64,000 nucleotides of DNA from Acidobacteriota bacterium. GTDB lineage: Bacteria; Acidobacteriota; Terriglobia; Bryobacterales; Bryobacteraceae. Position numbers and translations under genes: made by a program. Shown in pieces: positions 2,418 through 55,672 of this stretch (position 1 is the first letter of the stretch; each line of letters begins with the position of its first letter). The stretch lies in the NCBI GenBank assembly GCA_016185425.1, contig JACPNQ010000016.1:1-64000 (forward strand). The letters are read 5' to 3'. Under the pieces are notes generated by a model. The model was not told the origin of the DNA. It saw nothing but the letters and a program-made list of their open reading frames with translations, and ran no database searches.

Positions 2418-2456
2418 TTGTTGGCGCTATTCGCGCTGTGCCACACTTGAGAAGGA

Positions 2457-3347: not shown

Positions 3348-3350
3348 GTT

Positions 3351-4016: not shown

Positions 4017-4017
4017 A

Positions 4018-4989
4018 TCACGCGTCGACGTGGCGGCGGAAGTAGCGGTCGAGCGCCTGCTTGTTCTTGCTGGAGAGGGCGAGTGAGAGATCGCGGCGCT
4101 CGGCTTCCGGCAGGGCGCGGAACGCTTTGGCAAGCATCGTGTTCTGCGTAATGAATTCGAGTTTGGGCATGCCGACGACGCAGGCCGAGACCGGCAGGGA
4201 CATGGAGTAATAGAGCAGCTTTTCGAGCGGCGCCTGGCCGACGATGCCGTCCGCGGCGAAGACCTTCATGGCGAGAACGCCCATCTTCTTTTTGAGCGCG
4301 ACGGGGAGGGCGATCGTCTCGAAGCTGGGGATCATTTGCGGGTTGATCTCCATGCCGCCCTTGCCGTTCTTCATGCCGACGAGAGCGGCATTGAGAGCCA
4401 TCTGCGTACAGTCGAAGTCATGGCGTTCGAGGGCGGTTTTGAGCACCGTTGGGTCTGTGTGGCTGGTGACGCCGACAAAGCGGACGTGCTTGCCGTCGCG
4501 CATTTTGAGAAGGCGTTCGAGAACGCCGTCTTTTTTCTCGATGACGGCGAGGTCGTCGGCCGTGGTTAGGGAGTGGATGTGGACGAGGTCAATGCGGTCC
4601 GTTTGGAGGTTTTTGAAGCTTTGTTCGAGCCGGGCCATGGCCTTGTCGGGATCGCGCTCCTGGATCTTGGTGACCAGGAAGACCTCGTTGCGGCGCTTCG
4701 CCATGACCTTACCGACGCGGGTTTCGCTGACACCGTTGCCATACGCCTGCGCGGTGTCGATGTAATGAATGCCGCTGTTGATGGCGGTGTTGAGTGCTTC
4801 GAGGGCTTTGTCCTCGTCTTTGTAGGCGAGGAAGCGGCTGCCGCCGCCGATGCCGAGGACGGTAACCCGGACGCCGGTTTTGCCGAGCAGGCGCGTGGGC
4901 AGCTTGCCTGGTTCGGCGGCGTGTCCGGTGGTGGCGGCGAGGCTCGCCATGGCGGCGGATTCGAGGAATTGCCGGCGGCTGAAAGTCAT
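4018..4989 (-). CDS. exported aldo/keto reductase
   Basis: NAD(P)H-dependent oxidoreductase fold, 323 residues. The N-terminus MTFSRRQFLESAAMASLAATTGHA is a twin-arginine signal, so the enzyme is predicted to be exported folded with cofactor. The AKR tetrad region is recognisable: Asp and Tyr in IDTAQAYGNG, Lys in FLVTKIQ and His in VHIHSL. The substrate is unknown. The gene is divergent from a class V aminotransferase with a 44-bp spacer that must contain both promoters. Confidence 0.88.
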   Translation of the reverse strand: MTFSRRQFLESAAMASLAATTGHAAEPGKLPTRLLGKTGVRVTVLGIGGGSRFLAYKDEDKALEALNTAINSGIHYIDTAQAYGNGVSETRVGKVMAKRRNEVFLVTKIQERDPDKAMARLEQSFKNLQTDRIDLVHIHSLTTADDLAVIEKKDGVLERLLKMRDGKHVRFVGVTSHTDPTVLKTALERHDFDCTQMALNAALVGMKNGKGGMEINPQMIPSFETIALPVALKKKMGVLAMKVFAADGIVGQAPLEKLLYYSMSLPVSACVVGMPKLEFITQNTMLAKAFRALPEAERRDLSLALSSKNKQALDRYFRRHVDA

Positions 4990-5033
4990 ACTGCGCTTAT
5001 GCTACCAGACGGGGGGCGAGTATAGAATAGTTC

Positions 5034-6227
5034 ATGCGACGCCGCTCCTTTTTTACCGGGCTAACGGCCCTGCCCGCCGCCGCGCTGGCCGCGGAGAATC
5101 CAGAGGCTTATTGGAAGCGAATCCGCGACGAACAGTTCTACCTGCCGGCGTGGCGCGCGTTTTTGAATAACGGCAGCCTGGGCGTGGCGCCAAAGCCGGT
5201 AGTGGCCGCAGTGGAGAGATATCTGGAGAAGAGTGCGACACTCGACATGGACGAGTATCCGCGCTGGGGCTACGAGAAGATGGAGGCCCACCGGACGGCG
5301 CTGGCCGAGTATATCGGCTGCCCGGTGGCGGAGCTGGCTTTGACGCACAACGCGACGGAGGCGATGGGGATTGTCGCTTCGGGGCTGGATTTAAAGGCCG
5401 GTGATGAAGTGTTGATGACGGACCAAGAGCACCCGTCGGGCCGCGGAGCGTGGCTGGTGCGCCAGGCACGGCATGGGATCCAAGTGCGGATGGTGCCGCT
5501 GCCGCTGCCGCCGAAGGATCCGGGGCAGATTGCCGATTTGTTGATTGGATCGATCGGGCCGCGGACGCGCGTGCTGAGTTTTAGCGGAATCACGACGACG
5601 ACGGGCATGGTGCTGCCGGTGAAGGAGATTTGCCGGGCGGCGCGGGCGAAGGGTGTGATCACGCTGGTGGACGGCGCGCATATGCATGGGCAGATTCCGT
5701 TCCGCGTGGCCGACATGGAGTGCGACTTCATGGCGGGGAGTCCGCACAAATGGCTGTTCGCGCCGGCGGGTTGCGGGCTGTTGTATGCGAGAAAGGAGAT
5801 GCAGGAGCGGATCTGGCCGTCGATTACGACCGATGGATGGACGAATCAGTCGCTGGAGGGCGCGCGCTTCATGCAGGTGGGGACGAACAACCGCGCGATT
5901 CTGGAGGGGATGGTGGCGGGGCTGGAGTTCGGGAAGGGCATCGGGCCGGACCGGATTTATACGCGCATTCATCAGTTGGCGCGGATGGTGTTCGACCGGG
6001 CGCGGCGGATGCCGGGCGTGAAGATGCTGACGCCGGACGACGACCGGATGTTCGGGTCGTTGGTGACGATGCAGTTGCAGCCGGCGCACGCACAGAAGTT
6101 CGCGGCGTTGTGCAAGGAAAGGCGGATCTGGATTTCGGGCGCGGAGAGGTTCCGGGTGTCCACGCACATTCACACGCGGCCGGAGGATATCGACCTGCTG
6201 CTCCGGACGATGACGGAGTCATTGTAG
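5034..6227 (+). CDS. exported class V aminotransferase (PLP-dependent)
   Basis: 397-residue fold-type I PLP enzyme related to isopenicillin-N-epimerase/cysteine-desulfurase-like proteins. It starts with a twin-arginine-like leader (MRRRSFFTGLTALPAAALAA). The PLP lysine is expected in AGSPHKWLFAP (around residue 239), preceded by the VDGAHMHGQ aspartate that pairs with the pyridine nitrogen. The substrate cannot be deduced. A TATAGAAT sequence at 5021-5028 ends five bases before the ATG, so the message may have almost no leader. The 3' end overlaps the convergent NHL-repeat gene by 9 bp. Confidence 0.88.
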   Translation: MRRRSFFTGLTALPAAALAAENPEAYWKRIRDEQFYLPAWRAFLNNGSLGVAPKPVVAAVERYLEKSATLDMDEYPRWGYEKMEAHRTALAEYIGCPVAELALTHNATEAMGIVASGLDLKAGDEVLMTDQEHPSGRGAWLVRQARHGIQVRMVPLPLPPKDPGQIADLLIGSIGPRTRVLSFSGITTTTGMVLPVKEICRAARAKGVITLVDGAHMHGQIPFRVADMECDFMAGSPHKWLFAPAGCGLLYARKEMQERIWPSITTDGWTNQSLEGARFMQVGTNNRAILEGMVAGLEFGKGIGPDRIYTRIHQLARMVFDRARRMPGVKMLTPDDDRMFGSLVTMQLQPAHAQKFAALCKERRIWISGAERFRVSTHIHTRPEDIDLLLRTMTESL

Positions 6228-8810
6228 GTAGACGGAGAGTCCGGGGGGTGCGGGGATTGCGCCTATCTTAAAACTGACGGGCTGGCCGCCGGGCGGGTAG
6301 AAGCCGGTGGGAAGGCGGAAATTCACCTGCGTGAGGCCGGGGATACCGGGCGCGGGACCGGCCCAGATGAGCTGCGCGGTCATGGCGCCGACGCGGATCT
6401 CGATGGATTCGGTGGGCAGAATACCGGTGCCGGTGGCATAGAGCGAAGAGATGGAGCCGCGGGCGGCGGGATTGAGCGCGCTGTTGACAGAGCCGTTTTC
6501 ATTGACGGCCGCGGCGAAGACACCGGGCACGGCGGCCGCGACGGCGGCGGAGGATTTGGCGCGGAGCGTGCCGCGATGGAAGACTTGAATGTCTGCCGTT
6601 GAGCGGCCGGCGACGCTGGCCGGTATTTGGAGGTTGATCTGTGTGGCAGAGACGTAGAGGAGCGGCGCGGCTTCGCCGTCGACATAGACATCGACATCGG
6701 CGAGGAGTTTGGGCCAGCCTTTGTCAGTCAGCGTGGCGGAAGCGGGTTCGGATGCGCCGAATGCTTCTCCGCGAAGAGTGGCGAGCATTCCGGGTGCGAC
6801 AGTGCCTTCGGCGTTGGAGGCGGCGTTGGCGATGCGGGGGCCTTGCTCGAGTACCGAGATGAGAACGGCTTCCGGGCGGAGTTGGCGCACGCGGCCGTTG
6901 CCGAGGTCGGCGATGGCGAGGTTACCGAGAGAATCGAAGGCGAGTGCCGCGGGGAATTGGAACTGTGCGTCGACGGCGGGGCCGCCATCGCCGCGGAAGC
7001 CGGGCGTACCGTTACCGGCGACTTTGACTGTTATGGAATCGGTCATCATACAAATGCGGTGTTTGCCGGTGTCGGCGACGAAGATGCCGCCGCCGGGGGC
7101 CACGGCGACGGCGCGCGGAGAGGTGAGATCGGCGGTGCCGATGGTGGAGAGGAGACCGGTGAGATCGATGCGGCGGATGCGGTTATTGGCGGAGTCCGCA
7201 ATGTATAGATTGCCGGCGGAATCGAAGGCGAGTCCGCGGGGCTCGTTGAGCTGGGCGAATATGGCGGCCGAGCCTTCATAGGCGACGCCGGGAATGCCCG
7301 AGCCCGCGTAGGTTGTGATGATGCCGGCGCGGCTAAGACGGCGAACGCGGTGGTTGGCGGTGTCGGCGATGAAGATGTCGCCGTTGGAGTCGACGGCCAC
7401 GCCAGAGGGGAAGTTGAGCTGCGCCGCAGTGCCGGGGCCGCCGTCGCCGCGATAGCCGGGGAAGCCGTTGCCGGCCGCGGTGGTGATGGTTCCTGACGGG
7501 GCGATGACGCGAATGGTGTGGTTGCCGGTGTCGGCGACGTAGAGATTGCCAAAAGGATCGAAGGCAAGGGAGCGTGGGACGTTGAGACCGGCTTTGACGG
7601 CGGGGCCGGCGTCACCGGAATAGGCGGCTTTGCCGGTACCGGCGATGGTGGTGATGAGACCGGCGGGGGTGACGCGGCGGATGCGGTGCGCGCGTTCGTC
7701 GGCGATGTAGAGATTGCCGTCGCGGTCATAGGCGAGACCGGCCGGAGCAAGGAGGCGGGCGGTTTCGGCGCCGCCTCCATCGCCGGTCAGCTCCGCGAGC
7801 CCGGCGGCGGTTCCGGCGGCGAGTTGGGATTTGTTGGCGGGGTCGACACGATAGACGGCGGCATTCCAGCAGTAGTAGGCGCCTCCGCGGGGATCGGCGG
7901 CGACGGCGCGGCCGGAGAGCGGAAGCGCGGTAACCTCACCTTGCGGCGCACGTTTCAAGGCGCCGGTAGCGCGGGCGTCGGCGATGTACATGTTGCCGGC
8001 CGGATCGAATGCGACGCCGGTGGGGGAATAGAGAGGATAGTTGCGCAACGCGTCGCCGAGGTATGTAGTGATGATTCCCCGGGCGACGCGGCGCAGCCGT
8101 TGGGCACCGCTTTCGACGATGATGACGCCGCCGAGCGGTTCGAACGCGAGTCCGGCGGGGTTGCGGAGGGCGGAGCGGGTGGCGGTGACGTTGTCGGCGC
8201 CGTAGCCGGGACTGCCGGTGCCGGCGAAGACGGCAAGGATACCGCGGGCATCAACGGAATAGACGCGATGGGCGTCGAAGTCGGAAAAGTAAAAACCGCC
8301 GTTGGGATCGGCGAGGACGTTGCGCGGCGTTTTGAGTTGAAGATCGGTGGCGGTGGTGCCTTCGTTTGCGTCGGACGCGGGAAGAGCGCCGCCGCCGGCG
8401 ACAGTGCGGATAGTGCCGTTGGGGGCGATAACGCGGATGCGGGCGTTGCCGAGGTCGGCGACATAGAGATTGCCCTGGCGGTCGAGGGCGAGACCGTAAG
8501 GGCTGTTGAGATGGGCTTTGAGCGCGAGGCCGCCATCGCCGTCGAAGCCTGGGGAGCCATCGCCGGCTATGGTGCGGATATCGCCTTTGGGGGAGACGGC
8601 ACGGATGCGGTGGTCGGCGGCGTCGGCGATATAGAGGGTGCCGTCGGAATCGACGGCGATGCCTTCGGCCTGCTGAAGAATGGCTTGTGTGGCGAGGCCT
8701 CCGTCACCGGCGAAGCTGGAGCCGGCGATGGTTTGTATACGGAAAGCGGGTTGGGCGAAGGCGAATGCCCCGGACAGAGCCAAGGATATTCCGAGTGAAA
8801 TACGAGGCAT
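6219..8810 (-). CDS. secreted NHL-repeat beta-propeller protein with Solibacter-type C-terminal domain
   Basis: 863-residue exported protein. A signal peptide (MPRISLGISLALSGAFAFAQ) is followed by roughly a dozen NHL repeats, each reading like 'GNLYVADxxNxRIRxI' and many with a GDGGPA insertion, which should form one or two beta-propellers. From about residue 650 the sequence changes to a domain containing ATQINLQIP and a second segment ending in a beta-rich tail, like the TIGR03437 C-terminal domain common in Solibacter. No catalytic residues were recognised; a binding or scaffold role is likely. An AGGGGGA ribosome binding site precedes the ATG. The same C-terminal domain recurs in the genes at 36860 and 38782. 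Confidence 0.88.
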   Translation of the reverse strand: MPRISLGISLALSGAFAFAQPAFRIQTIAGSSFAGDGGLATQAILQQAEGIAVDSDGTLYIADAADHRIRAVSPKGDIRTIAGDGSPGFDGDGGLALKAHLNSPYGLALDRQGNLYVADLGNARIRVIAPNGTIRTVAGGGALPASDANEGTTATDLQLKTPRNVLADPNGGFYFSDFDAHRVYSVDARGILAVFAGTGSPGYGADNVTATRSALRNPAGLAFEPLGGVIIVESGAQRLRRVARGIITTYLGDALRNYPLYSPTGVAFDPAGNMYIADARATGALKRAPQGEVTALPLSGRAVAADPRGGAYYCWNAAVYRVDPANKSQLAAGTAAGLAELTGDGGGAETARLLAPAGLAYDRDGNLYIADERAHRIRRVTPAGLITTIAGTGKAAYSGDAGPAVKAGLNVPRSLAFDPFGNLYVADTGNHTIRVIAPSGTITTAAGNGFPGYRGDGGPGTAAQLNFPSGVAVDSNGDIFIADTANHRVRRLSRAGIITTYAGSGIPGVAYEGSAAIFAQLNEPRGLAFDSAGNLYIADSANNRIRRIDLTGLLSTIGTADLTSPRAVAVAPGGGIFVADTGKHRICMMTDSITVKVAGNGTPGFRGDGGPAVDAQFQFPAALAFDSLGNLAIADLGNGRVRQLRPEAVLISVLEQGPRIANAASNAEGTVAPGMLATLRGEAFGASEPASATLTDKGWPKLLADVDVYVDGEAAPLLYVSATQINLQIPASVAGRSTADIQVFHRGTLRAKSSAAVAAAVPGVFAAAVNENGSVNSALNPAARGSISSLYATGTGILPTESIEIRVGAMTAQLIWAGPAPGIPGLTQVNFRLPTGFYPPGGQPVSFKIGAIPAPPGLSVYLQ

Positions 8811-8873
8811 ACGAGTGTTTCCCCCTTTTATGTAAGTGGGAACAGGGTCGGATTTTTCTCATGCGAACTCGAT

Positions 8874-10994
8874 ATGCGCTGTATGGCAAGAAGATGGGTT
8901 GAGGTTCGCCGGGCGCTGGCGTTTGCAATTCTTTGCAGTTCGATGGTGGCGCTGGGGGAAGTGCACATAAAGAGCCGGGACAGCGGCGTCCGGCTGTTGA
9001 ATCGAACGAGCCGCGGGAAGAGCCGGCAGGCGCCGCGGTCGCATCTGATCCTGGATTTTGCGGAGACGCCGACGGCGGAAACGGCACGAAAACTAACGGC
9101 GCGCGGGATGAGAGTGGTGGCGTATCTGCCGGTGACGGGTGTGATAGTGGGAGTGGAGGGTGAGCCGGATCTGCGCGGGTTGAACGTGAACGGGTTCGAC
9201 GCCATGCAGCCCGAGGACAAGTTGAGCCCGGAGCTGGCAAGGGCGAGTGGGCGCTCGGCGCGGCACTACTTTGTAGTGGAGTTCCACGCCGATGTGCCAT
9301 GGGAGGAGCGTCGAGCGCTCGTGACGGAGACGGGGTTGGCAATTCGGGATCATCAGGACCTAGTGGCGGAACATATGCTGGTGCGGGGTACCTTGGAGCA
9401 GGCGCATGCGCTGGCAGAGTGGGATGAGGTGGCCTATGTGTTTCCGGCGAGTGGAGAATTGGCGACCGGGCTGCCGCTGATTGGATGCGTGGGCGCGGCG
9501 GCCGAGGCAGGCCAGGTGGGGCAGTTGACGCAGCGCATTGGGGAGGGTTGGGACGGACCGGGACTAGGCGCGGCGAGCTTGACCTATTCGCTTCAGGCGT
9601 TGACGGGGAAGATACCGGCCGAGCAGGCACAGCAGGAGATCCAGCGGGCGATGGCGATGTGGTCGCAAGTAGTGAAGGTGAATTTTGCGCGAACGGCGTC
9701 AACGGGCGCGAGCAGGAATATTAACATTCTGTTCGGTGCCCGGGACCACGGCGATAACTACGCCTTTGATGGTCCGGGCAGAGTACTGGCGCATACGTTC
9801 TACCCCGCGCCGCCCAATCCGGAGCCGATTGCGGGGGATCTGCATTTTGATGACGAGGAGAATTGGAATGTGGGCGCGGATGTGGACTTGTTCAGCGTGG
9901 CGCTGCATGAACTGGGCCATGCGTTGGGATTAGGACACTCCGATGTTCCCAATGCGGTGATGTATCCGTATTATCGCCGCGCGACGGCGTTAACGCCGGA
10001 GGATATTGGGGCGATCCGGCTGTTATATGGAGCTATGCCGGATGAGTCCGTGCCTGCGCCGCTCGCCTTGTCGATAACTACGCCTTCGTCCGGATCGACC
10101 ACCTCGGCGGCCACCACTTCAATAACCGGAACAGTGACGGGTGCGAATGGAACGCCGCAAGTGACGTGGTCGAACCCGCGCGGCGGGAGTGGAAGCGCGA
10201 CTGTGACAGAGAACGGCTCGGGCAACTATCTGTGGCAGGTCTCCTCGGTGACGCTGTCCCTGGGCGACAATCAAATTGCGCTGAATGTTGCCGATGGCGC
10301 CAATCGTACAGCCAATGCTGTCGTCGCGGTGCGGCGGATCACCGAAGCGGCGGCGCCGCCTGCCCCGACGCCGATACCTGTGCCGCCACCTCCGCCCGCG
10401 GCCCGCTTGACGCTTGCGGTAACGGCGCCGGCGGAGAATTCCGCTGTGACGAAGAACCCGATCATGGCCTACGGCACTCTCTCTGGCGGAGTGGGCCAGC
10501 TCTCAGTGCGCTGGTCGAGTGACCGAGGCTTCAGCGGGACCGCGACGGTTACCGCGACGAATGACGGCAAGTACCGTTGGGAGGTGAATCCGCTGGCTGT
10601 ACAAGCCGGGACGAACACATTCACGATTACAGCCGCAGACGCCGCTGGAGCGACGAGTTTGCGGTCCTTCGCGGTGGAATATACAGTGCCTTCCGCCGGC
10701 AATAATCCAACCGGCGATAACCGTCCGCCGCAGATCACGCTGCTTGCTCCTACATCGCCATTTCTCATGACGCCTGCCTACGCGATTGCTGTTCGGGGCA
10801 GTGCCACCGACGCTTCCGGGATTGCCGAGGTCCGATGGGAGTGTAGTTGCGGATCACGCGGCGTCGCGCAGGGCACGACGCAGTGGCTGATTCCGTCCAT
10901 CAGCCTGCAGCGTGGATATCACACCATTAAGGTGACCGCCAAGGATACCGCCGGCTTAGAAGGCTCCGCGAGGTTTGCGGTGTTCCGCTACTAA
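8874..10994 (+). CDS. matrixin-like secreted metalloprotease with Ig-like repeats
   Basis: 706-residue exported protein with a signal peptide in the first 28 residues. The zinc site HELGHALGLGHSD begins near residue 345, matching the metzincin HExxHxxGxxH pattern, followed by the MYPYY Met-turn region of matrixins. Upstream is a long propeptide-like domain without recognisable motifs. Downstream (about residues 390-706) are three Ig-like/Big-type beta domains (SITTPSSGSTTSAATTSITG, LTLAVTAPAENSAV, ITLLAPTSPF) joined by a Pro-rich linker. Likely a cell-surface or secreted protease. It is divergent from the NHL-repeat gene, with 63 bp between them. A second ATG three codons in is an alternative start. 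Confidence 0.88.
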   Translation: MRCMARRWVEVRRALAFAILCSSMVALGEVHIKSRDSGVRLLNRTSRGKSRQAPRSHLILDFAETPTAETARKLTARGMRVVAYLPVTGVIVGVEGEPDLRGLNVNGFDAMQPEDKLSPELARASGRSARHYFVVEFHADVPWEERRALVTETGLAIRDHQDLVAEHMLVRGTLEQAHALAEWDEVAYVFPASGELATGLPLIGCVGAAAEAGQVGQLTQRIGEGWDGPGLGAASLTYSLQALTGKIPAEQAQQEIQRAMAMWSQVVKVNFARTASTGASRNINILFGARDHGDNYAFDGPGRVLAHTFYPAPPNPEPIAGDLHFDDEENWNVGADVDLFSVALHELGHALGLGHSDVPNAVMYPYYRRATALTPEDIGAIRLLYGAMPDESVPAPLALSITTPSSGSTTSAATTSITGTVTGANGTPQVTWSNPRGGSGSATVTENGSGNYLWQVSSVTLSLGDNQIALNVADGANRTANAVVAVRRITEAAAPPAPTPIPVPPPPPAARLTLAVTAPAENSAVTKNPIMAYGTLSGGVGQLSVRWSSDRGFSGTATVTATNDGKYRWEVNPLAVQAGTNTFTITAADAAGATSLRSFAVEYTVPSAGNNPTGDNRPPQITLLAPTSPFLMTPAYAIAVRGSATDASGIAEVRWECSCGSRGVAQGTTQWLIPSISLQRGYHTIKVTAKDTAGLEGSARFAVFRY

Positions 10995-11096
10995 GAGTAT
11001 TCGGTTGTCGAGAACATGTTCGATGGTTCGCTCTTTCTTCGTAAACCACCGACATATTCCCTCTTCGACCAGAGGACGAATCTCTTGAATACTCCG

Positions 11097-12896
11097 TTAA
11101 AAAATAAAGGCTAGCCCGCCCCGCACTGTGCGAGGCGAGGGAAGCAGCACAACCCGCCGTTCGTTCGTTCCTTGCAGCGGCAAATAGCCCTGATGCAACA
11201 CATTACGAAGTTCGGCGACGGCTTCCACACGGCCCGCCCAAATCCCGAAGCTGGGAATGGGTTGGCGGACCTGGACATTCAGGCCGAGATCGGGGGATTG
11301 ACGCATCGTCATATACCGGTGCGCGGGAAGCGCGGCGCGGTAATCGGTCATCATATAGGTCGCCGAGAAGCGAGTGCCGGAACCGGGCACGGCACCCGCA
11401 ACGCGGAAGTTGCTCCAACTGCGCTGAGTGTGGCGGAGCGCCCCACGCAGGCTGTCGGGATTTCCGGACTCGATTATTTCCCCCCGGGGCTGCAGCGTGC
11501 CACCAGTCCCGAAGGCCGCCTGCGCAGACCAGTGCTCGCCGAAGCGGCGATCCACGGAGGCCATGGCGCCGCGGCGATGATAGCTGCCGATGTTAAAGAC
11601 ACTGGAGCGGCTGAAAAGGTCGGGGAGCATTTCGCTCGTGGCGTAGTCGGTCGTGTCGCCCATGGCCATGAGGGCGGCATTGGCGACGTCTTCATAATAG
11701 GCGGCGACGGAGATCCTGGTATTCGTGTCCAACTCGTGCGAGATGGAAGCTTCGGCCTGGTTCATACGCTGGACATGGGTTCGTCCGTCGCGCATGGAAA
11801 CGCGGGGGAAGGAGCTGAGCGTGGAGAGATCCTGTTGTAGATCGCCCGAAGCCTGGCGGTTAGCTACATACATCTCTTCGGGCGCAGCGCCGCTCGACCA
11901 GGCAACGCGGACGGCATCTTTTTTGGTGACCTCGATGTCGAGGCGGGCAAAGGGGCTGAGGAGATTGAGCCGATCAAAGAAGGTGACGGATTCCAATTGG
12001 GCGCCGTAGGTGAACTCGATCTGGCCGCCGAGCTTGAAGTGATCGAGGACAAGCCCGGTCATCGCGCCGAGCGCCGGTGAATTAGCGCTGTTCAGCGCGG
12101 CACCGGCGCGCGTGGGAAGGAAGGTCTGGCGGACGGTGAGCTGCACTTCGGGAGAATTGGAAACAGGAAGTCCGTTCGAGATCGAATCGCGGCTGTAGCG
12201 GGTTCGGAAGCTGGCGGCGGGCATGCCCGCGCGCGACACGTAGCCGACGTTTCCGGAAACCTGCACGTTGTTCACGCCGTACAGCGAAGTGGCGACCGCG
12301 AAGGCGGTGCCCAGATCCGGCTGATTGCCTTGAATGGCGCTGCCGCTATCGCCGGCGGAGACGCGAACCAGTGCGCGCGTGTTGCTGAAAATGTTTTCCG
12401 GCCGCGACGTGGAGGGCAGGTAACGAAGGACCGGGCGAGTGGACATCGAACTGCGCAGCACCCACCGCCACTCATCGGATAGTAATCGCGGGGCGTTCGG
12501 GGTAGCGTATACGAACTCGACGGAGCTCAGCACACTGGCCAAGTTGATATTCAGGAAGCTGCGCATTCCCGGTTGCACCAGGATGCCTTCGCGGATGGCC
12601 GGAACGAAGCTGCTCAGCGAGACACGGATGATGTAGGAGTCGGGAACGAGGTTGTCAAAGCCGAACTGGCCGCGCTCATTGGTGACGGCCCTTTGCACCA
12701 GCTTTTCCATCCGGTTGAACAACAACACCGTGGCGCCCATTTGCGCAATTCCGCCAGGGTCCGCCACGACCCCAATAATCGCACCGGCCGACTTTGGGAA
12801 GTCGGCCGCGGAGACGGGACTGCTACTAGCCGATCCCGTAAGAATCAGCCCGGCGAAGAGAACTGCGAATTGGCGCCGGTACGAAGTCATAGGCAT
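11097..12896 (-). CDS. outer-membrane beta-barrel protein with carboxypeptidase-regulatory-like domain
   Basis: 599 residues. A signal peptide (to about residue 30) is followed by a carboxypeptidase-regulatory/CNA-B-like fold (GAIIGVVADPGGIAQMGATV through GQFGFDNLVPDSYIIRV), then a long region rich in alternating aromatic and polar residues typical of TonB-dependent-receptor barrels in Acidobacteria. It is shorter than the usual 1000-residue oar-like receptors, and I see no clear plug domain. The sequence ends VRGGLAFIF, a terminal Phe that fits the BAM insertion signal. Downstream of a convergent-facing 102-bp gap; the GWxTD gene lies 37 bp upstream on the same strand. Confidence 0.75.
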   Translation of the reverse strand: MPMTSYRRQFAVLFAGLILTGSASSSPVSAADFPKSAGAIIGVVADPGGIAQMGATVLLFNRMEKLVQRAVTNERGQFGFDNLVPDSYIIRVSLSSFVPAIREGILVQPGMRSFLNINLASVLSSVEFVYATPNAPRLLSDEWRWVLRSSMSTRPVLRYLPSTSRPENIFSNTRALVRVSAGDSGSAIQGNQPDLGTAFAVATSLYGVNNVQVSGNVGYVSRAGMPAASFRTRYSRDSISNGLPVSNSPEVQLTVRQTFLPTRAGAALNSANSPALGAMTGLVLDHFKLGGQIEFTYGAQLESVTFFDRLNLLSPFARLDIEVTKKDAVRVAWSSGAAPEEMYVANRQASGDLQQDLSTLSSFPRVSMRDGRTHVQRMNQAEASISHELDTNTRISVAAYYEDVANAALMAMGDTTDYATSEMLPDLFSRSSVFNIGSYHRRGAMASVDRRFGEHWSAQAAFGTGGTLQPRGEIIESGNPDSLRGALRHTQRSWSNFRVAGAVPGSGTRFSATYMMTDYRAALPAHRYMTMRQSPDLGLNVQVRQPIPSFGIWAGRVEAVAELRNVLHQGYLPLQGTNERRVVLLPSPRTVRGGLAFIF

Positions 12897-47921: not shown

Positions 47922-48413
47922 ATGCAGCCGGTGCCGCCGCACATAGCCGCGATCACTCGACCGGTCGACCGGCTCATGACCTATTACACGTTGACCGCGA
48001 TGGCGACGCTATTCGGCTTTCCCATCACAATCCTCGTGCTCTACTTCCGCTACCACACCATGCGGTACGAGTTCGGCGCCGAGGGACTGCGCATGAGTTG
48101 GGGCATTCTCTTCCGTCATGAAGTGCTCCTCAACTATGCGCGCATCCAGGATATTCATCTCCGTTCGAACGCGATTGAGCGCCTTCTCGGCTTGGCGCGG
48201 ATCGAGATCCAGACCGCAAGCGGCGCGGGAAGCTCCGTGATGACACTGGAAGGACTTACCGATCACGAGCGGATGCGCGATTTTCTGTATTCGCGCATGC
48301 GCGGCGCGGCCGATGCAAAGCATGGCGCGGCGCCGGACGCCGGGTTGACGGCGGTGCTCCATGAAGTCGCGGCCGAACTCCGCGCCGTGCGTGCGGCGTT
48401 GGAGAAACGGTAA
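47922..48413 (+). CDS. bacterial PH-domain (YdbS/YdbT-like) membrane protein
   Basis: 163 residues. One or two transmembrane helices near residues 22-42 (LTAMATLFGFPITILVLYFRY) precede a bPH2-type domain (YEFGAEGLRMSWGILFRHEVLLNYARIQDIHL, ERLLGLARIEIQTASG), ending in a helical tail. Paired genes of this type (YdbS with YdbT in Bacillus) occur together. The partner here is the following gene, which starts at the last base of this stop codon but is split by a transposon. Role unknown; membrane or lipid-associated scaffolding is proposed for the family. Confidence 0.85.
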   Translation: MQPVPPHIAAITRPVDRLMTYYTLTAMATLFGFPITILVLYFRYHTMRYEFGAEGLRMSWGILFRHEVLLNYARIQDIHLRSNAIERLLGLARIEIQTASGAGSSVMTLEGLTDHERMRDFLYSRMRGAADAKHGAAPDAGLTAVLHEVAAELRAVRAALEKR

Positions 48414-48531
48414 TGAAGGAAACGCTCCTCCGCCTGCTGCGCGTGCCGCCGGAACCCTCGCCGCCGGACGGTTCACCGGAGTCGATCAGGATCTTCCGCG
48501 CCGGCAGGAATTACTATCGCTGGCGCCTGCT
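48413..48531 (+). pseudogene. 5' part of a second PH-domain protein gene, interrupted by the transposon
   Basis: The ATG shares its A with the preceding TAA. The fragment encodes MKETLLRLLRVPPEPSPPDG followed by a segment ending NYYRWRLL, where the left end of the transposon begins. The last seven bases (GCCTGCT) are repeated at 55083-55089. Joining this fragment to 55090-55672 gives one open frame of 233 codons, so the gene was intact before insertion. Confidence 0.93.
48525..48531. repeat. target-site duplication, left copy
   Basis: GCCTGCT, repeated exactly at 55083-55089 immediately outside the other transposon end. No other duplication length fits these ends. Confidence 0.9.
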
Positions 48532-48578
48532 TGTCACTCTCAGAATTAATTGGCGCACTTCCGTCAACATTATTTGGC
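48532..48578. repeat. left terminal inverted repeat of the transposon
   Basis: 47 bp, 43 identical to the right end (mismatches at positions 8, 19, 20 and 25 from the tip). It begins TGTCACTCTCAGAATTAA. The inner end supplies the final codons and the stop of the serine recombinase gene. A second GTCA-type motif (CGTCAACATT) about 30 bp in suggests paired transposase binding sites. Confidence 0.92.
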
Positions 48579-49154
48579 ATGTTTAGCCTTCCTTGCTGAC
48601 GGGAGCGCCCGGGCAAGAAGCCTACTGACAGTGGCGGGATGGATCTTGAACAGCCGCGCGGCGTCAGCGGCCGTCTTGTCGCCCTTCGATACCATCTTGC
48701 GGATTTCAACTTGCTGTTGAGGCGTCAGCTTCGGACGGCGTCCACCGATGCGTCCCTCTTCTCGGGCGGCATCCAACCCGGCCTTGGTCCGTTCCTTGAG
48801 CATAGCCCTCTCGAACTCCGCGAACGCCCCGACCATCTGCATCATCATCCGGCCTGCCGGTGTGGTCGTATCGATGGCCTCGGTCAAGCTGCGGAATCCC
48901 GCTCCAGCTTCCCCGAGCCGCTCCATAATCGTGAGTACGTCGCGGAGCGACCGAGACAACCGGTCGAGTTTCCAGACCACGAGCACATCACCCTTGCGAA
49001 GTTGGTCAAGCAATCGGTGAAGTTCAGGCCGATCCCAACGTCCACCGGACGCCTTCTCCCGATAGATCCGCTCACACCCAGCGGTCTTGAGCGCTGCCAC
49101 TTGGACAGCGGTGTCTTGATCGTCGGTCGAGACTCTGGCGTAGCCGATGTGCAT
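48570..49154 (-). CDS. serine recombinase (resolvase/invertase family)
   Basis: 194 residues. N-terminal catalytic domain: IGYARVSTDDQD with the nucleophilic Ser, KASGGRWDRPEL, VVWKLDRLSRSLRD and FAEFERAMLKERT. A helix-turn-helix tail ends it (TAADAARLFKIHPATVSRLLA). Size and layout match Tn3-type resolvases and TniR, which resolve cointegrates at a res site. The stop codon lies within the transposon's terminal repeat. The 249-bp region upstream (49155-49403) is the natural place for its recombination site and contains short inverted repeats, CCAAT/ATTGG and AAACC/GGTTT, but no res site could be defined. Confidence 0.93.
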   Translation of the reverse strand: MHIGYARVSTDDQDTAVQVAALKTAGCERIYREKASGGRWDRPELHRLLDQLRKGDVLVVWKLDRLSRSLRDVLTIMERLGEAGAGFRSLTEAIDTTTPAGRMMMQMVGAFAEFERAMLKERTKAGLDAAREEGRIGGRRPKLTPQQQVEIRKMVSKGDKTAADAARLFKIHPATVSRLLARALPSARKAKHAK

Positions 49155-49364
49155 TGCTCAAATGTATCGCCAATCAAATTGGTAACGCAATACCTTTTTG
49201 CAACGCAAGAGGCCCAGCAAATTAACTTCTATCGGATTGTTGCGAAACCGGAGGTTTACGCACCTTCGATAGTACGGTGGAAGCGCTGGTACCGCTTTGA
49301 GAAACGCTACGCGACAAGTCAGGGAAGGCCTGGTAGGCGTGAGTGCGAGCGTGTGTTCGTGCGA

Positions 49365-49400
49365 GTAGACGGTCTACACAATCGATGGTAGACTGTCTAC
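49365..49400 (+). promoter_or_regulatory. tandem palindromic operators overlapping the padR promoter
   Basis: Two 13-bp palindromes of the form GTAGAC-N-GTCTAC lie at 49365-49377 and 49388-49400, 23 bp apart start to start. The hexamers TAGACG (49366-49371) and TAGACT (49389-49394) sit inside them at a 17-bp spacing and could be the -35 and -10 boxes. The second palindrome ends three bases before the padR ATG, and no ribosome binding site is visible. The likely reading is autorepression by PadR. Confidence 0.6.
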
Positions 49401-49403
49401 AGA

Positions 49404-49760
49404 ATGAGTTCAAAGCAGCCAACTCGTGTGGAACTTCTTCAGGGCACTTTGGATCTGCTGATCCTTCGAACACTGTTGGCGGGTCCAAGTCATGGCCATT
49501 CCATCGCCAAACATATTCAGCGGACCTCAGAAGACCTACTGCAGGTCGAGACTGGCTCCTTGTATCCGGCGCTTCATCGCTTAGAAGCAAAGGGCTGGAT
49601 TGGCGCATCTTGGGCGCTTTCTGACAAAGGCAAACGCGCCAAGTACTATCGACTGACACAGGTTGGGCGAAAGTATCTGATTGCCGAACAATCCAAGTGG
49701 GACGCATTTTCGCGCGCTATGAGCCTGATCTTGAAGCCCTCGGAGGAGGAGGCACAATGA
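49404..49760 (+). CDS. PadR-family transcriptional regulator (acidobacterial permease-linked type)
   Basis: 118-residue winged-helix repressor. The sequence VELLQGTLDLLILRTL ... GPSHGHSIAKHIQ ... VETGSLYPALHRLEAKGWI ... KYYRLTQVGRKYL is the PadR fold and matches the subgroup found beside orphan permeases in Acidobacteria. It overlaps the permease start by 4 bp (ATGA), so the two are cotranscribed. Palindromes directly upstream are probable binding sites. It is carried inside the transposon, so regulator and operator move together. Confidence 0.93.
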   Translation: MSSKQPTRVELLQGTLDLLILRTLLAGPSHGHSIAKHIQRTSEDLLQVETGSLYPALHRLEAKGWIGASWALSDKGKRAKYYRLTQVGRKYLIAEQSKWDAFSRAMSLILKPSEEEAQ

Positions 49761-52525
49761 AGCTGTTCCTTCACAAGTTGCGTTCGCTTTCACAGCGCCG
49801 CCGCAAGGAGCAGGAACTGCGCGAAGAGCTTGAATTCCATCTCGATGAGGAGGCTGAACAGCATCAAGCGGACGGATTAGCAGCAGCTCAAGCCAGAGAG
49901 GCTGCCCGACGGGACTTGGGAAACCTTACGATCACTCAGGAAAATACTCGCGCGATGTGGACCTGGACCATCCTGGAACAGCTCGTTCAGGATCTTCGAT
50001 TTGCGCTGCGGACCATGGCAAAAAACCGCGGATTCACGGCGCTTGCCGTTCTTTCGATGGCGCTCGGCATCGGAGCCAATACGGCGATCTATAGCTGCAT
50101 GGACTCGATTCTGCTGCGTTCCCTGCCGGTCGACGATCCTGAATCCCTCGTGGTGCTGAACTGGCACAGCAAGGTTCCGCGCCAAACGCGGACCAGCCAA
50201 CGTGCCGTTCACGTTATGCATTCGATGGACGGCAGCACTTACGACGATCCCAGAAAGGGAATGATCGCTGGGATTTTCCCCTACGCGGCCTTCGAACTGA
50301 TCGGCAGAACGGACTCTGTTTTCTCGCACGTCTTCGCCCACTATCCTTCGGGAAACCGCACGGTGCAGATCAAAGGACAGGCCGATAGGGCCGGCGGCGC
50401 GTTTGTTTCCGGAGATTACTTTCGGGGATTGGGTGTCGTCCCCGCGGCCGGCCGCCTGATCGCTGCCGAGGACGATCGAGTGGGAGCCCCTCCCGTTGCC
50501 GTACTGAGTTTCGCTTTGAGCAATAGACGATTCGGAGGGCCGGCAAATGCGACCGGACAGTCGATTCTCATCGACAATGTGCCCTTCACGGTGGCTGGCG
50601 TGGCACCGCCTGAGTTCTTCGGAGTCGACCCCGCATTGTCTCCGGATTTCTATCTTCCGCTGCGCACTAACCTCGTCGTGGGCGGAGAATTCACGCCCAA
50701 TTACATCGATCAGAACTACTACTGGCTTGAAATTATGGGTCGCTTGCGTCCGGGGGTCAGCCTTTCGCAAGCCCAGGCCGTGCTAGCTCCGGCTTTCCAG
50801 AATTGGGTCGCCAGCACAGCGGCCAATGCCGAAGAGCAGGCAAATCTTCCCGCCCTCGTGCTCAAGCAGGGGGCAGGCGGACTGGATAGCTTGCGCCGTC
50901 AGTTCTCAAAGCCGTTGAATGTGTTGCTCGTGCTCGTGGGACTTATCCTGGCGCTGGCCTGCGCGAATACGGCGAATTTGCTGCTGGCCCGGGCCACGGC
51001 GCGACGCCGGGAGTTGGCGCTGCGTCGCAGCCTGGGCGCAGGGCGGCTCCGAATCATCAGGCAACTCCTGACAGAAGGTGTCCTCTTGTCGACCCTGGGT
51101 GGCGCCATTGGAGTTCTAGTTGCGGTTTGGGGCATCCGGTTCCTGACTCTTTTGCTTGCCAATGGAAACGAAAGCTTCGCTTTGCGCGCGGATTTGAATT
51201 GGCAGGTATTGGGGTTCACCGTAGCTCTTTCGTTGCTGAGTGGCGTATTGTTTGGCCTCGCCCCGGCAATCCAAGCGACGCGCACAGATGCCATGCCGGC
51301 CTTAAAAGAAACTCGTGGAAGCGTGCCAGGCATGTCCGCGCACCGGGCCTTTTTTCGGATCAACCTGAGTCAAATCCTGGTGGCTGCGCAGATCGCGATG
51401 TTCCTGCTGATCCTTGTCGCCGCAGGACTTTTCGCGCGAACCCTGGCGAATCTGCAGTCGGTGCAATTGGGCTTCATGGGTGAAGGCGTTCTGCTCTTTC
51501 AACTGAACGCGAGGCAGGCGGGACACCAGGATCCGGAGATCGTGACTTTCTATTCCGATCTGAGGGACCGATTCGAGGCCATTCCGGGTGTGCGGAACGC
51601 GAGTCTCTCGCACGCTTCTCTACTCAAGGCAGGCAGACAACATCCGGTCAGTGTCGCTGGTGTCCCCGCCCCTGGCACAAGGTTTCTTTACACGGGACCG
51701 GGATTCCTGACGACGATGCAGATTCCACTTTTGCGTGGCCGCGAAATCGACCGGCGTGACCAACCGGGGTCGCCGGCGGTGGCGGTGGTGAACGAATTGT
51801 TCGCCAAGTCCAACTTCGGCACGCGGGACCCATTGGGCCAACACCTCAAGATCGGTGGCACCGGGGCGCGCGAGGTGGAAATTATCGGTGTTTGTGCGAA
51901 TACCCGGTACGGCGGACTCAAGCGTGACATGCCGCCGGTGGTGTTTCTGGCTTATAACCAGGTCTTGCAGTTCTCACGCGTGGGTCAACAGATGACCTAT
52001 GCGCTTCGCATCACCGGCGACCCCGCTTCCTACGTGAAGGCAATCCGCGAAATCGTGACCCACGCCGACGCCCGGATCCCGGTCACGGACATCATCACCC
52101 AAACGGCCGAAATCGACCAGACGATCAACCAGGAGATCGTCTTCGCGAAGCTCTCCATGGGTTTCGCCATTCTCGCGCTGGTGATCGCCTGCGTCGGCTT
52201 GTATGGAACGGTCTCTTACAATGTTGCCCGCCGAACGAGCGAGATCGGCATACGTATGGCGCTAGGGGCCGCGCGCGCAGACGTCGTTTGGATGGTGCTG
52301 CGTGATGTGCTGGTTGCGGCAAGCATCGGCTTGGCGGTCGGTCTACCGGTTACGTTAGGCACCTCCAGGTATGTCGAATCTTTCCTTTTTAAGATGAATG
52401 CCAATGATCCGTTGTCGCTCAGTCTCGCGGTGATCGTTCTTCTGTGTGCCGTCCTCGTGGCTGGTTTCGTACCTGCGCGGAAAGCGACGCGAATTGATCC
52501 AACGGTGGCGTTGCGCCAGGAGTAG
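49757..52525 (+). CDS. MacB-like orphan ABC permease (ADOP family)
   Basis: 922-residue permease without its own ATPase. An N-terminal charged helix (RRRKEQELREELEFHLDEEAEQH) typical of ADOP proteins precedes a MacB periplasmic core domain and FtsX domains: an N-terminal helix (FTALAVLSMALGIGANTAIYS), paired helices near residues 390-530 (LVLVGLILALACANTANLLLA) and a second FtsX unit near the end (GFAILALVIACVGLYGTV, ending IDPTVALRQE). Family members are abundant and duplicated in Acidobacteria; function is unknown. A GGAGGAGG ribosome binding site sits in front of the ATG. It is the main cargo of the transposon. Confidence 0.92.
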   Translation: MKLFLHKLRSLSQRRRKEQELREELEFHLDEEAEQHQADGLAAAQAREAARRDLGNLTITQENTRAMWTWTILEQLVQDLRFALRTMAKNRGFTALAVLSMALGIGANTAIYSCMDSILLRSLPVDDPESLVVLNWHSKVPRQTRTSQRAVHVMHSMDGSTYDDPRKGMIAGIFPYAAFELIGRTDSVFSHVFAHYPSGNRTVQIKGQADRAGGAFVSGDYFRGLGVVPAAGRLIAAEDDRVGAPPVAVLSFALSNRRFGGPANATGQSILIDNVPFTVAGVAPPEFFGVDPALSPDFYLPLRTNLVVGGEFTPNYIDQNYYWLEIMGRLRPGVSLSQAQAVLAPAFQNWVASTAANAEEQANLPALVLKQGAGGLDSLRRQFSKPLNVLLVLVGLILALACANTANLLLARATARRRELALRRSLGAGRLRIIRQLLTEGVLLSTLGGAIGVLVAVWGIRFLTLLLANGNESFALRADLNWQVLGFTVALSLLSGVLFGLAPAIQATRTDAMPALKETRGSVPGMSAHRAFFRINLSQILVAAQIAMFLLILVAAGLFARTLANLQSVQLGFMGEGVLLFQLNARQAGHQDPEIVTFYSDLRDRFEAIPGVRNASLSHASLLKAGRQHPVSVAGVPAPGTRFLYTGPGFLTTMQIPLLRGREIDRRDQPGSPAVAVVNELFAKSNFGTRDPLGQHLKIGGTGAREVEIIGVCANTRYGGLKRDMPPVVFLAYNQVLQFSRVGQQMTYALRITGDPASYVKAIREIVTHADARIPVTDIITQTAEIDQTINQEIVFAKLSMGFAILALVIACVGLYGTVSYNVARRTSEIGIRMALGAARADVVWMVLRDVLVAASIGLAVGLPVTLGTSRYVESFLFKMNANDPLSLSLAVIVLLCAVLVAGFVPARKATRIDPTVALRQE

Positions 52526-52612
52526 GAATCCAAATCGATTGCCCGGCGGGCGAATCGGACATCGAAGTTGCTTCGGTTGATCAACTCGCCATAAACGCGT
52601 AGCGTAGAGTTT

Positions 52613-53623
52613 CTAGGACTGCCCGATGACAAGATTCTCGCGTGCCGCCTCAACCACCTCTTTGGTCACTGACGGCAGGGCGTTGATTTCGAGAATCCGT
52701 TCGACTTGCGTCAGGAGGCGATTCAGCAGCCGGAAGTTGCCGCCGGTGATTCGGATGATCGAAGCGGCGGCGACCGTATCAATGGCGTCACCCGGAAGTT
52801 TAACGCCCGGCGGTGTCCAGTGACGCTCCAGCAGTTGCCGAATCTCGCTTGTCGACAGCGGACGAAATTCGTGAACAAAACCAATGCGGGAGTACAACTG
52901 CGGATAGCGAGCCAAGCGCTTTTCAATGCCTGGCATACCGATCAGAATCATTCCGATCCCGCCCCGATCAAAAATGCTCCGTGCCTGCTCCAGTCCGGCG
53001 ATCTTGAGCCGGTCGGCTTCGTCAATGACCAACAGCGCGGTCGGATCGGGGACCAATCTTTCTAATCCCATCGTGCGATGCCGTTGTTTGAGGAAGGCGT
53101 CTTCAGCATCCTCAGTCTCCTGGCTGCGATATCCATCGGGGTTCTTTAGACGATCACGAAGGTCGTCGAGAATACAAAGGAGCCTGCGCATCTCCGCATT
53201 CTCAACCTGACGCCGCACATCAATGGCAGCACTACGCAGCCGGTCTCGGAGCTTCCCGATCTGTCTCTCAATAACGCTCGGAGCGCCGACCACCGGGGCG
53301 GTGTAAAAGACAGTGGAACTGGCAGCGATCTCCTCAACTGTTGCTGCGTCATGGCCAGGATAATTCCAGAAGTCCTGCATCCTTTCCCAGTTGGCATAAT
53401 GACGTGCTGACACCGTCTTGCCGACGCCTGGAGGGCCGTAGCAAAGGCCGATGTATTTGTAGCGCTTACACGCGTCACAGAACTCAGCGAATCGGCGGTG
53501 TTCGAGGGTTTCGACTATGGCGGCGCTGGGCGTGGTGCTACTCGTTCTTGTATCGCTTGAGCCGGGGGACGGCTGCGGGCGGCTTTGCAGGCTCTTCTGC
53601 GGAGCCGCTTTCCTGTTGGGCAT
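52613..53623 (-). CDS. AAA ATPase of the TniB/MuB/TnsC type
   Basis: 336 residues. Walker A is CYGPPGVGKTVSARHYA (near residue 62) and Walker B is ALLVIDEADRLK (near 196), followed by a sensor-like ILIGMPGIEKRLARYPQ and RITGGNFRLLNRLL near the C-terminus. In related transposons this ATPase binds target DNA and activates the transposase. The start at 53623 lies 86 bp inside the 3' end of the transposase gene in another frame. A later non-ATG start cannot be excluded, because the first 40 residues are low-complexity Ser/Thr/Pro. Confidence 0.85.
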   Translation of the reverse strand: MPNRKAAPQKSLQSRPQPSPGSSDTRTSSTTPSAAIVETLEHRRFAEFCDACKRYKYIGLCYGPPGVGKTVSARHYANWERMQDFWNYPGHDAATVEEIAASSTVFYTAPVVGAPSVIERQIGKLRDRLRSAAIDVRRQVENAEMRRLLCILDDLRDRLKNPDGYRSQETEDAEDAFLKQRHRTMGLERLVPDPTALLVIDEADRLKIAGLEQARSIFDRGGIGMILIGMPGIEKRLARYPQLYSRIGFVHEFRPLSTSEIRQLLERHWTPPGVKLPGDAIDTVAAASIIRITGGNFRLLNRLLTQVERILEINALPSVTKEVVEAARENLVIGQS

Positions 53624-55022
53624 GTTCTTTCTCCGTGATTCCTCCGCGCTTCAAATCGAGCAGAGTATTCACGGCGCTTTCGCGATCCCGCAGGATGCCG
53701 CGCAGTTCCCGCCGCCGCCGATTCCGAGCGCGGAGAATCTCGCGAAGCGGCACGGTCTCACCGGCGAGTTCAGCGCAGAGGGCACGGCACAAGAACTTGT
53801 CTTCGTGGAAGACGCGGATCTCTGCCATGTCCCTCGGATCGAATCGCAGCGTGACCGTTTCCCCAACGTACGCCGCCAGTGTTGTCGAGATGTAACGGAG
53901 GTTCTGGAAGTGAATCCCATCGGCCCGCACCTGGCGCGCCTTGACCACTCGAATCAGCAGTAGATCCAGATGTTCCAGCGAGTCCGGCATTCGCGGCAGA
54001 AATCCGTTGGCCTCCCAGCGCTCGACGGGCGGTGTCTTTGTTTCTGCATTCGCTCGGCGGTGGTAGATGTCGAGAAGAAAGGCGCGGAATAGCGTATCGA
54101 ACTCTGCCAGCGTCAGCGTTGGCTTCCCACGCACAGCGCCGCCAGCCGGAGCATAGCCGTCCAACTCGCACAAGAACATCTCGTTCACGGTCGAGAAGAA
54201 ACGCTCGATGCGTCCACGGCCCCTCGGCTTACCGGGAATGGAGAAGACCAGGCGGATCTTCAGATCCGCGCCCACTTGTTCCAAATGATTGGATGTGAAG
54301 TCGCTGCCGTTGTCCGTGTAGAGAACATCGGGGATGCCGCACACGACCCAGCGGGCGTCCTCTTTGCGCCAAATTGCCTGACGCAACGCCAAGGACGTGT
54401 GCAACGCGGAGGGGTCTTGGAACGAGAGAAAATATCCGGCAACAGCCCGACTGTAATCGTCGATCACGGTACTGAGCCACGGTTTGGCTGTCTCGCCGTC
54501 CGGACGGATCAAGAGAATGTCGAGCGGCGTGTGGTCGGCCTGCCAGATCGCATTCGGCCCCGCAGCTTCTCTCCGGTGAACCAACTCAAATGTGTTACTG
54601 TATGCCTCCGTGCCTTCGTGGGCGAGCGTTACGAGGTCCGCGCCCAAATTGCGGACGATGCTGAAGACGGTACCGTAGCTGGGAGCCTTCTCGCCCAAGT
54701 CCTTGGACAATCGCTGTACCTGCCGGAATAGGGCCGCGAGCGGCAGTGGCGGCTTTTGCAGAGCAAGGCCTTCAATGACTTCCTTGAGCTTCGCCGAAAC
54801 GACCCTGCGCTCACCGCGATCCTCGCGTCTCTTGCGCGCCAGGGCCGCCAAACCGAACAGCCGGTATTGAGCAACCCAGCGTTGCGCGGTTCGATACGGA
54901 ACGCCTGCCGCACGCGCCACGGACTGCAATGACTGATTCTGTTCAAGATGAGGCTGGATCAGCCGGAACCGCTCAATGGCGAGTTTCCTGATCTCTTCGG
55001 TGAGTCCCGCCAGTTGGTCCAT
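53538..55022 (-). CDS. DDE transposase with integrase core (TniA/Mu-like)
   Basis: 494 residues. An N-terminal helix-turn-helix (SLQSVARAAGVPYRTAQRWVAQYR) is followed by the rve catalytic core: first Asp in AIWQADHTPLDI, DDYSRAVAGYFLSF, second Asp in LYTDNGSDFTS, and the Glu in RGRIERFFSTVNE. A Mu-type C-terminal domain (YVGETVTLRFDPRDMAEIRVFHEDKFLC) and a charged tail follow. The ATG at 55022 is chosen; a TTG at 55040 would start within the terminal repeat. It is transcribed inward from the right end and overlaps the ATPase gene by 86 bp, suggesting translational coupling. Confidence 0.93.
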   Translation of the reverse strand: MDQLAGLTEEIRKLAIERFRLIQPHLEQNQSLQSVARAAGVPYRTAQRWVAQYRLFGLAALARKRREDRGERRVVSAKLKEVIEGLALQKPPLPLAALFRQVQRLSKDLGEKAPSYGTVFSIVRNLGADLVTLAHEGTEAYSNTFELVHRREAAGPNAIWQADHTPLDILLIRPDGETAKPWLSTVIDDYSRAVAGYFLSFQDPSALHTSLALRQAIWRKEDARWVVCGIPDVLYTDNGSDFTSNHLEQVGADLKIRLVFSIPGKPRGRGRIERFFSTVNEMFLCELDGYAPAGGAVRGKPTLTLAEFDTLFRAFLLDIYHRRANAETKTPPVERWEANGFLPRMPDSLEHLDLLLIRVVKARQVRADGIHFQNLRYISTTLAAYVGETVTLRFDPRDMAEIRVFHEDKFLCRALCAELAGETVPLREILRARNRRRRELRGILRDRESAVNTLLDLKRGGITEKEHAQQESGSAEEPAKPPAAVPRLKRYKNE

Positions 55023-55035
55023 ACTTGAAGAGTAC

Positions 55036-55082
55036 GCCAAATAATGTTGACGGAAGTACGCCGCTTAATTCTGAAAGTGACA
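55036..55082. repeat. right terminal inverted repeat of the transposon
   Basis: 47 bp ending AGTGACA, the inverse of the left end with four mismatches. A GGCGTACT direct repeat occurs at both its middle and its inner boundary when read inward, again suggesting multiple transposase sites. Confidence 0.92.
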
Positions 55083-55089
55083 GCCTGCT
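55083..55089. repeat. target-site duplication, right copy
   Basis: GCCTGCT, identical to 48525-48531. Confidence 0.9.
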
Positions 55090-55672
55090 CATCTGGGGCT
55101 TCTCCCGCTTCGCGGCGCTGTCGGTGATCCTGATCGGCATCTTCTCGCTGATGATGGCATCGCGAAAGGCGCCACCGCAGGCACAAATCGTGCTGCAGTC
55201 GATCGAATACACCGCACTCTTTGCCGTCGTCGCCACGCTTCCGTTCTCGTTTTTTCTTCAAAGACTCGACTACGAGATGCGCTGGTACATCGTCACCGAC
55301 CGCAGCCTCCGCATTCGCGACGGCATCTGGAACGTCGAAGAACTGACGATGACCTTCGCCAATATTCAGGACCTGCGCATCACGGCCGGTCCTATCCAAG
55401 GCTGGCTTGGCCTTGCCGATCTCGAGGTCAGCAGCGCAGGCGGAGGTGGCGGCGGCGGCGCTAAGCACGGCGTTCGCGACGGCTCCCATATCGCTCGCTT
55501 CGCCGGTGTCGACAACGCGGTAGAGATCCGCGACCTCATCCAGGACCGTCTCCGCCGCTACCGGGATGCGGGCCTCGGCGACCCCGGCTCGCCCCAGGCA
55601 CCGGCCAGCACGGAAGAAGCCGCCGCCGAGTTACTCGCCGAAGCGAAAGCCTTACGCGCGGCAGTAAGTTAA
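55090..55672 (+). pseudogene. 3' part of the interrupted PH-domain protein gene
   Basis: Encodes IWGFSRFAALSVILIGIFSL, a second hydrophobic helix, and a bPH2 domain (YEMRWYIVTDRSLRIRDGIW, TMTFANIQDLRITAGP, GLADLEVSSAGG) ending in an Ala/Glu-rich helix. It has lost its start and the first 40 codons to the other side of the transposon. The fragment could be expressed only from an in-transposon start such as that at 55025. Its TAA overlaps the stop of the convergent SDR gene. Confidence 0.93.

Follow-up and report, generated by a model that had tools for sequence, protein, structure and literature searches.

The window analyzed here is the whole 64,000-nucleotide stretch at positions 1 to 64,000 of contig JACPNQ010000016.1, from a Bryobacteraceae genome of the phylum Acidobacteriota (GCA_016185425.1). 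Its positions 48532 to 55082 are a transposon of 6,551 bp, and we are highly confident that this is a complete Tn552-like element that inserted into a PH-domain gene and carries a PadR regulator and an ADOP permease as cargo; neither the element nor its insertion is in doubt. These soil acidobacteria have greatly multiplied ADOP permeases, and what is new here is a genome-wide screen tying three different PadR-ADOP pairs of the source genome to bounded transposons, most copies having no detectable trace of one. PadR-ADOP is a recurrent transposon cargo in this genome, and the presence of three ADOPs on three transposons of two kinds is a direct sign that these permeases move, as defined units of operator, PadR, and ADOP.

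A Tn552-like transposon splits a PH-domain gene

The element is bounded by terminal inverted repeats of 47 bp, identical at 43 of the 47 positions, which lie at 48532 to 48578 on the resolvase side (plus strand) and at 55036 to 55082 on the transposase side (minus strand). A 7-bp target-site duplication, GCCTGCT, flanks it at 48525 to 48531 and 55083 to 55089. When the flanks are joined with a single copy of GCCTGCT, an open frame of 233 codons starting at 48413 is rebuilt exactly, the 5' part of the interrupted gene (48413 to 48531, plus strand) being in frame with its 3' part (55090 to 55672, plus strand); the Pfam domain bPH_2 matches the 3' part and also the gene directly upstream. The empty site was compared at the level of related species, and in 12 other genomes of the same genus the PH-domain gene is whole (∼51 to 60% identity), free of stops, and continuous across the insertion point, mostly adjoining the same upstream PH gene. 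The first-pass annotation of this DNA had proposed a recent mobile insertion with an empty site to be sought in relatives. The insertion and the uninterrupted gene were both borne out, and "recent" fits the intact frames and the clean reconstruction, although the event is undated.

A positional model built for the 47-bp end scored 63.8 bits at both ends of the element, whereas shuffled sequence of 64 kb gave about −7 at best, so the two ends are not products of chance. Each of them contains two similar blocks, ending in TTGGC or TTTGGC and 24 bp apart, which are probable transposase sites. An open frame at 55025 to 55672, with a TTG start inside the right end, runs into the PH domain, and translation beginning at the transposon edge might therefore still produce a truncated PH domain.

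The gene order between the ends is tniA-tniB-cargo-res-tniR, with tniA, tniB, and tniR on the minus strand. The DDE transposase TniA (53538 to 55040; rve plus Mu-transpos_C; 500 amino acids) starts at a TTG at 55040, or alternatively at an ATG at 55022, and is 43% identical to p480 of Tn552 over 438 columns; its catalytic residues are conserved, D169, D243, and E279 aligning with the DDE residues of relatives. The AAA ATPase TniB (52613 to 53623; 336 amino acids) has the Walker A motif GPPGVGKT and the Walker B motif LLVIDEAD and is 41% identical to p271 of Tn552 over 308 columns, and the serine resolvase TniR (48570 to 49154; 194 amino acids) is 40% identical to Tn552 Bin and retains an intact catalytic-serine motif, YARVS. 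A Pfam profile search detected no TniQ among the proteins of the element. The ∼110 bp upstream of tniR (49155 to 49264, minus strand), which contain TTGC...GCAA dyads and are conserved in five elements (that of the window, L052, L054, L059, and L065), are likely the res site. The element is presumably active.

Sister elements reveal a single cargo slot

Homologues of the transposase were taken from two genome collections, and the end model gave ∼50 to 76 bits beside nearly every close homologue, versus never more than about −7 in shuffled sequence. The same ends thus recur in many other genomes with different flanks and different cargo, as the first-pass annotation had predicted. Hosts of the Tn552-like branch with these ends include Acidobacteriota, Nitrospirota, and Armatimonadota, and more distant transposase homologues occur in Chloroflexota, Melainabacteria, and Actinomycetota. 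Both ends together with a target duplication were found in sisters L045 (3,993 bp; GGTTCGGG), L057 (AACAAGG), L087 (CAAATGGC), L056 (GGTATTGG), and L054 (CCTGGC), the duplications among sisters being 6 to 8 bp long. The closest relative (L050), with a TniA 92% identical to that of the window, has a stop codon where the catalytic glutamate would be.

One sister (L052) is cargo-free, its tniB stop being followed by 3 bp, the res block, and tniR, which places the slot between the end of tniB and the outer boundary of res. In cargo-bearing sisters, the passenger lies between these same two points, and the passengers are mutually unrelated: an alpha/beta hydrolase (L054), a TIG/FG-GAP protein (L059), DUF1254, DUF4410, and TetR genes (L065), a peptidase S51 with a GNAT/TacA pair (L044), and a DUF1648 protein (L045). 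No ADOP is carried by the 15 sisters elsewhere with defined ends (11 Tn552-like and 4 Tn7-like), ADOPs near but outside the elements (L059, L081, and L074) not being counted as cargo.

Two further arrangements were observed among the relatives. In a Fimbriimonas metagenome-assembled genome (L056, 685 to 12444), several copies of related ends, nested or in tandem, occur with two tniA-tniB modules; the outer element (1346 to 12444), which is the one flanked by GGTATTGG, contains ankyrin-repeat genes and a tyrosine recombinase. In genome G570 (L074; L212, 3606 to 7397), a PadR-ADOP pair beside ABC-transporter genes abuts a tniA that is cut at residue 182 and is 89% identical to that of the window, and a second contig has a different piece of tniA; an insertion into such a transposon, or a deletion of one, is a possible origin.

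The cargo is a self-contained PadR-ADOP unit

The passenger of the window element is a self-contained unit on the plus strand, consisting of a probable tandem operator, PadR, and ADOP. The PadR regulator (TIGR03433; 49404 to 49760; 118 amino acids) is mostly 75 to 83% identical to the nearest chromosomal copies in related genera, and the ADOP permease (TIGR03434; 49757 to 52525; 922 amino acids) is 62 to 65% identical to its nearest chromosomal copies. Both exceed their NCBIfam cut-offs, the ADOP with 844.7 bits against 622.3. At 49365 to 49400, two perfect palindromes, GTAGACGGTCTAC (49365) and GTAGACTGTCTAC (49388), lie 23 bp apart, the second ending 3 bp before the PadR start; their motif occurs elsewhere just once within the 1.15 Mb of source-genome stretches scanned, and they probably form the PadR operator. 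DNA similarity to most of the nearest chromosomal units starts sharply at 49364/49365 and stops at the ADOP stop codon.

The nearest copies of the cargo are chromosomal PadR-ADOP pairs that come from other genera within the family, and none of these transposon ends accompanies the nearest ADOPs in the genus (55 to 59% identity) or in the family (62 to 65%). A chromosome of this family, where units of the same lineage sit without transposon ends, was probably the source of the cargo. On plasmids, ADOPs were found in four records, all below 40% identity.

Three transposons of the source genome carry PadR-ADOP pairs

In the 6.6-Mb source genome, 54 ADOPs are full-length and pass the NCBIfam cut-off, and one more falls just below it. 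All 55 loci were screened, up to 8 kb on each side, for an inverted repeat with at least 20 of 25 matches flanked by a 5- to 9-bp duplication. Exactly three loci, those of the window, C33, and C30, had such ends, and a mirrored control yielded 0 matches; the other 52 had none within 8 kb at this threshold, and lowering it to 18 of 25 returned mostly noise.

The locus on C33 (179775 to 188960; L049, L214, and L315) is an intact-looking 9.2-kb Tn7-like transposon encoding a TnsA-TnsB fusion, TnsC, TniQ, and a DUF6788-like open reading frame, with a different PadR-ADOP pair as its sole cargo. Its ends, TGTGACTTAAAnCATAnCTTTGCCG, match at 23 of 25 positions (at 179775 and 188960), contain arrayed repeats, and are flanked by the 5-bp duplication CGCAT. 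Its rve and TnsA-like matches fall below the Pfam cut-off though they are significant, and TniQ lies above it; TnsA with TnsB, TnsC, TniQ, the 5-bp duplication, and the arrayed end repeats together make it Tn7-like. The locus on C30 (24092 to 32846; L156 and L316) is a decayed Tn7-like element with the duplication CAGGT, which has lost most of TnsB and whose cargo comprises a third PadR-ADOP pair, a gene of the beta-lactamase fold, and one for a radical-SAM activase-like protein. The ADOPs of these two elements are 31% and 37% identical to that of the window, so the captures were three separate events.

Such machinery is scarce in the source genome, where, besides the rve gene of the window, there are only one on C33 and an IS21-like gene on C22, and where TniQ matches occur only on C33 and C30. 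No whole copy of the window element was found elsewhere in this genome; apart from ADOP similarity, there were two remnants, a tniA fragment (C8:118878) and an isolated Tn552-like end with a res-like piece after it (C42, 1798 to 1950; L217; GCAATACCGTTTTGCAACGC), the latter being a vestige of an older copy. The most similar ADOP copies noticed, those on C13 and C44 (L012, 3918 to 6621, and L013, 1 to 2704), are 89% identical in DNA and represent a fairly recent duplication or conversion; no transposon ends were found around this pair, C44 starting inside the gene so that its upstream edge is not covered.

Transposition and the spread of ADOPs

A scheme for this element would begin with TniA binding both blocks of each end and TniB picking and activating a target, whereupon both ends would be joined to target strands ∼7 to 8 bp apart. 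By analogy with Tn552, a replicative route appears most likely, in which TniR would resolve the cointegrate at the res site beside tniR; sisters without duplications are consistent with it, because intramolecular events would leave them. Passenger DNA would enter at the single tniB-res slot, that of the window as one whole unit, and the two Tn7-like transposons took up their PadR-ADOP pairs independently, suggesting that such pairs are favored or well-retained cargo in this lineage. Weighing against this account of the window element are its single copy in the source genome; its ADOP cargo, which no sister of known cargo shares; the 100 bp that separate res from the operator and the 87 bp that follow the ADOP, which have no assigned origin; and six both-ended relatives (L044, L052, L055, L058, L059, and L065) that have no duplication, as intramolecular insertion or later rearrangement of some of them would explain.

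Why three transposons should carry such pairs can be read in several ways. The most far-reaching reading, which we consider possible though less likely than not, is that the PadR-ADOP unit (∼3.2 kb: operator, regulator, and permease) is a preferred, self-contained cargo that has been repeatedly and independently taken up and kept by different Tn7-superfamily transposons in Acidobacteriota, because the permease would benefit the new host or the element, and that this is a real route of spread between genomes and between genomic sites.

Coincidence, with transposons taking whatever DNA lies nearby and ADOPs being common, would account for the same three cargoes, and both the 54 ADOPs in 6.6 Mb and the unrelated cargo of the sisters speak for it. 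Yet ADOPs make up only an estimated ∼1% of the genes, and an ADOP is present in each of the three Tn7-superfamily elements of this genome whose ends are defined, versus 0 of the 15 sisters elsewhere (Fisher P ∼0.001, a rough, post hoc estimate); we consider coincidence somewhat unlikely.

The first-pass annotation had gone further in suggesting that mobility of the cassette could explain the expansion of ADOPs. Recurrent carriage on transposons of two kinds and the very number of copies agree with this, but transposition on such elements is improbable as the main cause of the expansion in Acidobacteriota, given the 52 of 55 loci without ends, the few TniQ and rve genes, the low identity among the three mobile ADOPs, the lack of such ends at the most similar copies, and the sisters devoid of ADOP. 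In Solibacter, most paralogues are old and divergent, with mobile elements near some (PMC3174227). Since 52 of the 55 ADOPs bear no trace of carriage, transposons are one dispersal route and not a full account of ADOP number. That the unit is itself mobile and entered the transposon by its own movement, instead of being picked up like any other cargo, is likewise improbable, for although homology with chromosomal units of several genera stops sharply at the operator and the ADOP stop and the same kind of unit occurs in three different transposons, no inverted or direct repeats bound 49365 to 52525, no recombinase lies inside, and sharp edges are also expected if selection acts on the genes and operator alone.

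Comparison with known systems

The first-pass annotation knew of no described element with this combination; its DDE transposase, TniB-like ATPase, and serine recombinase turned out to be the known set of Tn552 (the penicillin-resistance transposon of Staphylococcus; p480, p271, bin, and blaI-blaR1-blaZ), whose genes were read from the S. epidermidis plasmid NZ_CP065660 (L158). The two share these three proteins (40 to 43% identical), the lack of TniQ, a cargo that pairs a regulator with an effector, short target duplications, and repeated transposase sites in the ends. In Tn552, however, the ends are ∼120 bp, the duplication is 6 bp, and the order is bla-bin-p480-p271, whereas the window element has 47-bp ends, a 7-bp duplication (6 to 8 bp in sisters), and the order tniA-tniB-cargo-res-tniR with PadR-ADOP as cargo; given its ends and gene order, identity as Tn552 itself was rejected. 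Tn552 has been described with two transposition genes, bin, 6-bp duplications, and ∼120-bp ends (PMC3276174), and arrays of transposase sites are known from the ends of Tn7, Tn5090, Tn5053, and Tn552 (PMC8649781).

Elements of the Tn402/Tn5053 type (tniA, tniB, tniQ, and tniR) have the same transposase superfamily, the tniA-tniB order, and cargo beside a res/resolvase module in common with the window element, but they carry TniQ, and a Tn402-type TniA is only ∼24% identical to that of the window, over part of the protein; membership was rejected on these two grounds. Their target duplication is 5 bp, compared with 7 bp here. Tn7-like transposons (TnsAB, TnsC, and TniQ) belong to the same superfamily, and the two in the source genome also carry PadR-ADOP; with 5-bp duplications, a TnsA domain, TniQ, and no resolvase, they are elements separate from that of the window. 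In a transposase tree, Tn552 and a Tn402-like protein fell on long branches, and the tree was not used for exact sisterhood.

As for the cargo, both genes lie above the curated cut-offs of TIGR03434 and TIGR03433, families whose source-genome copies are nearly all chromosomal and without ends. In a limited literature search, no description of ADOP as transposon cargo came up, which is limited evidence of novelty. Judged by its proteins and layout, the window element is best described as a Tn552-like variant with its own ends and layout, combining a backbone of an already known kind with a new cargo and arrangement.

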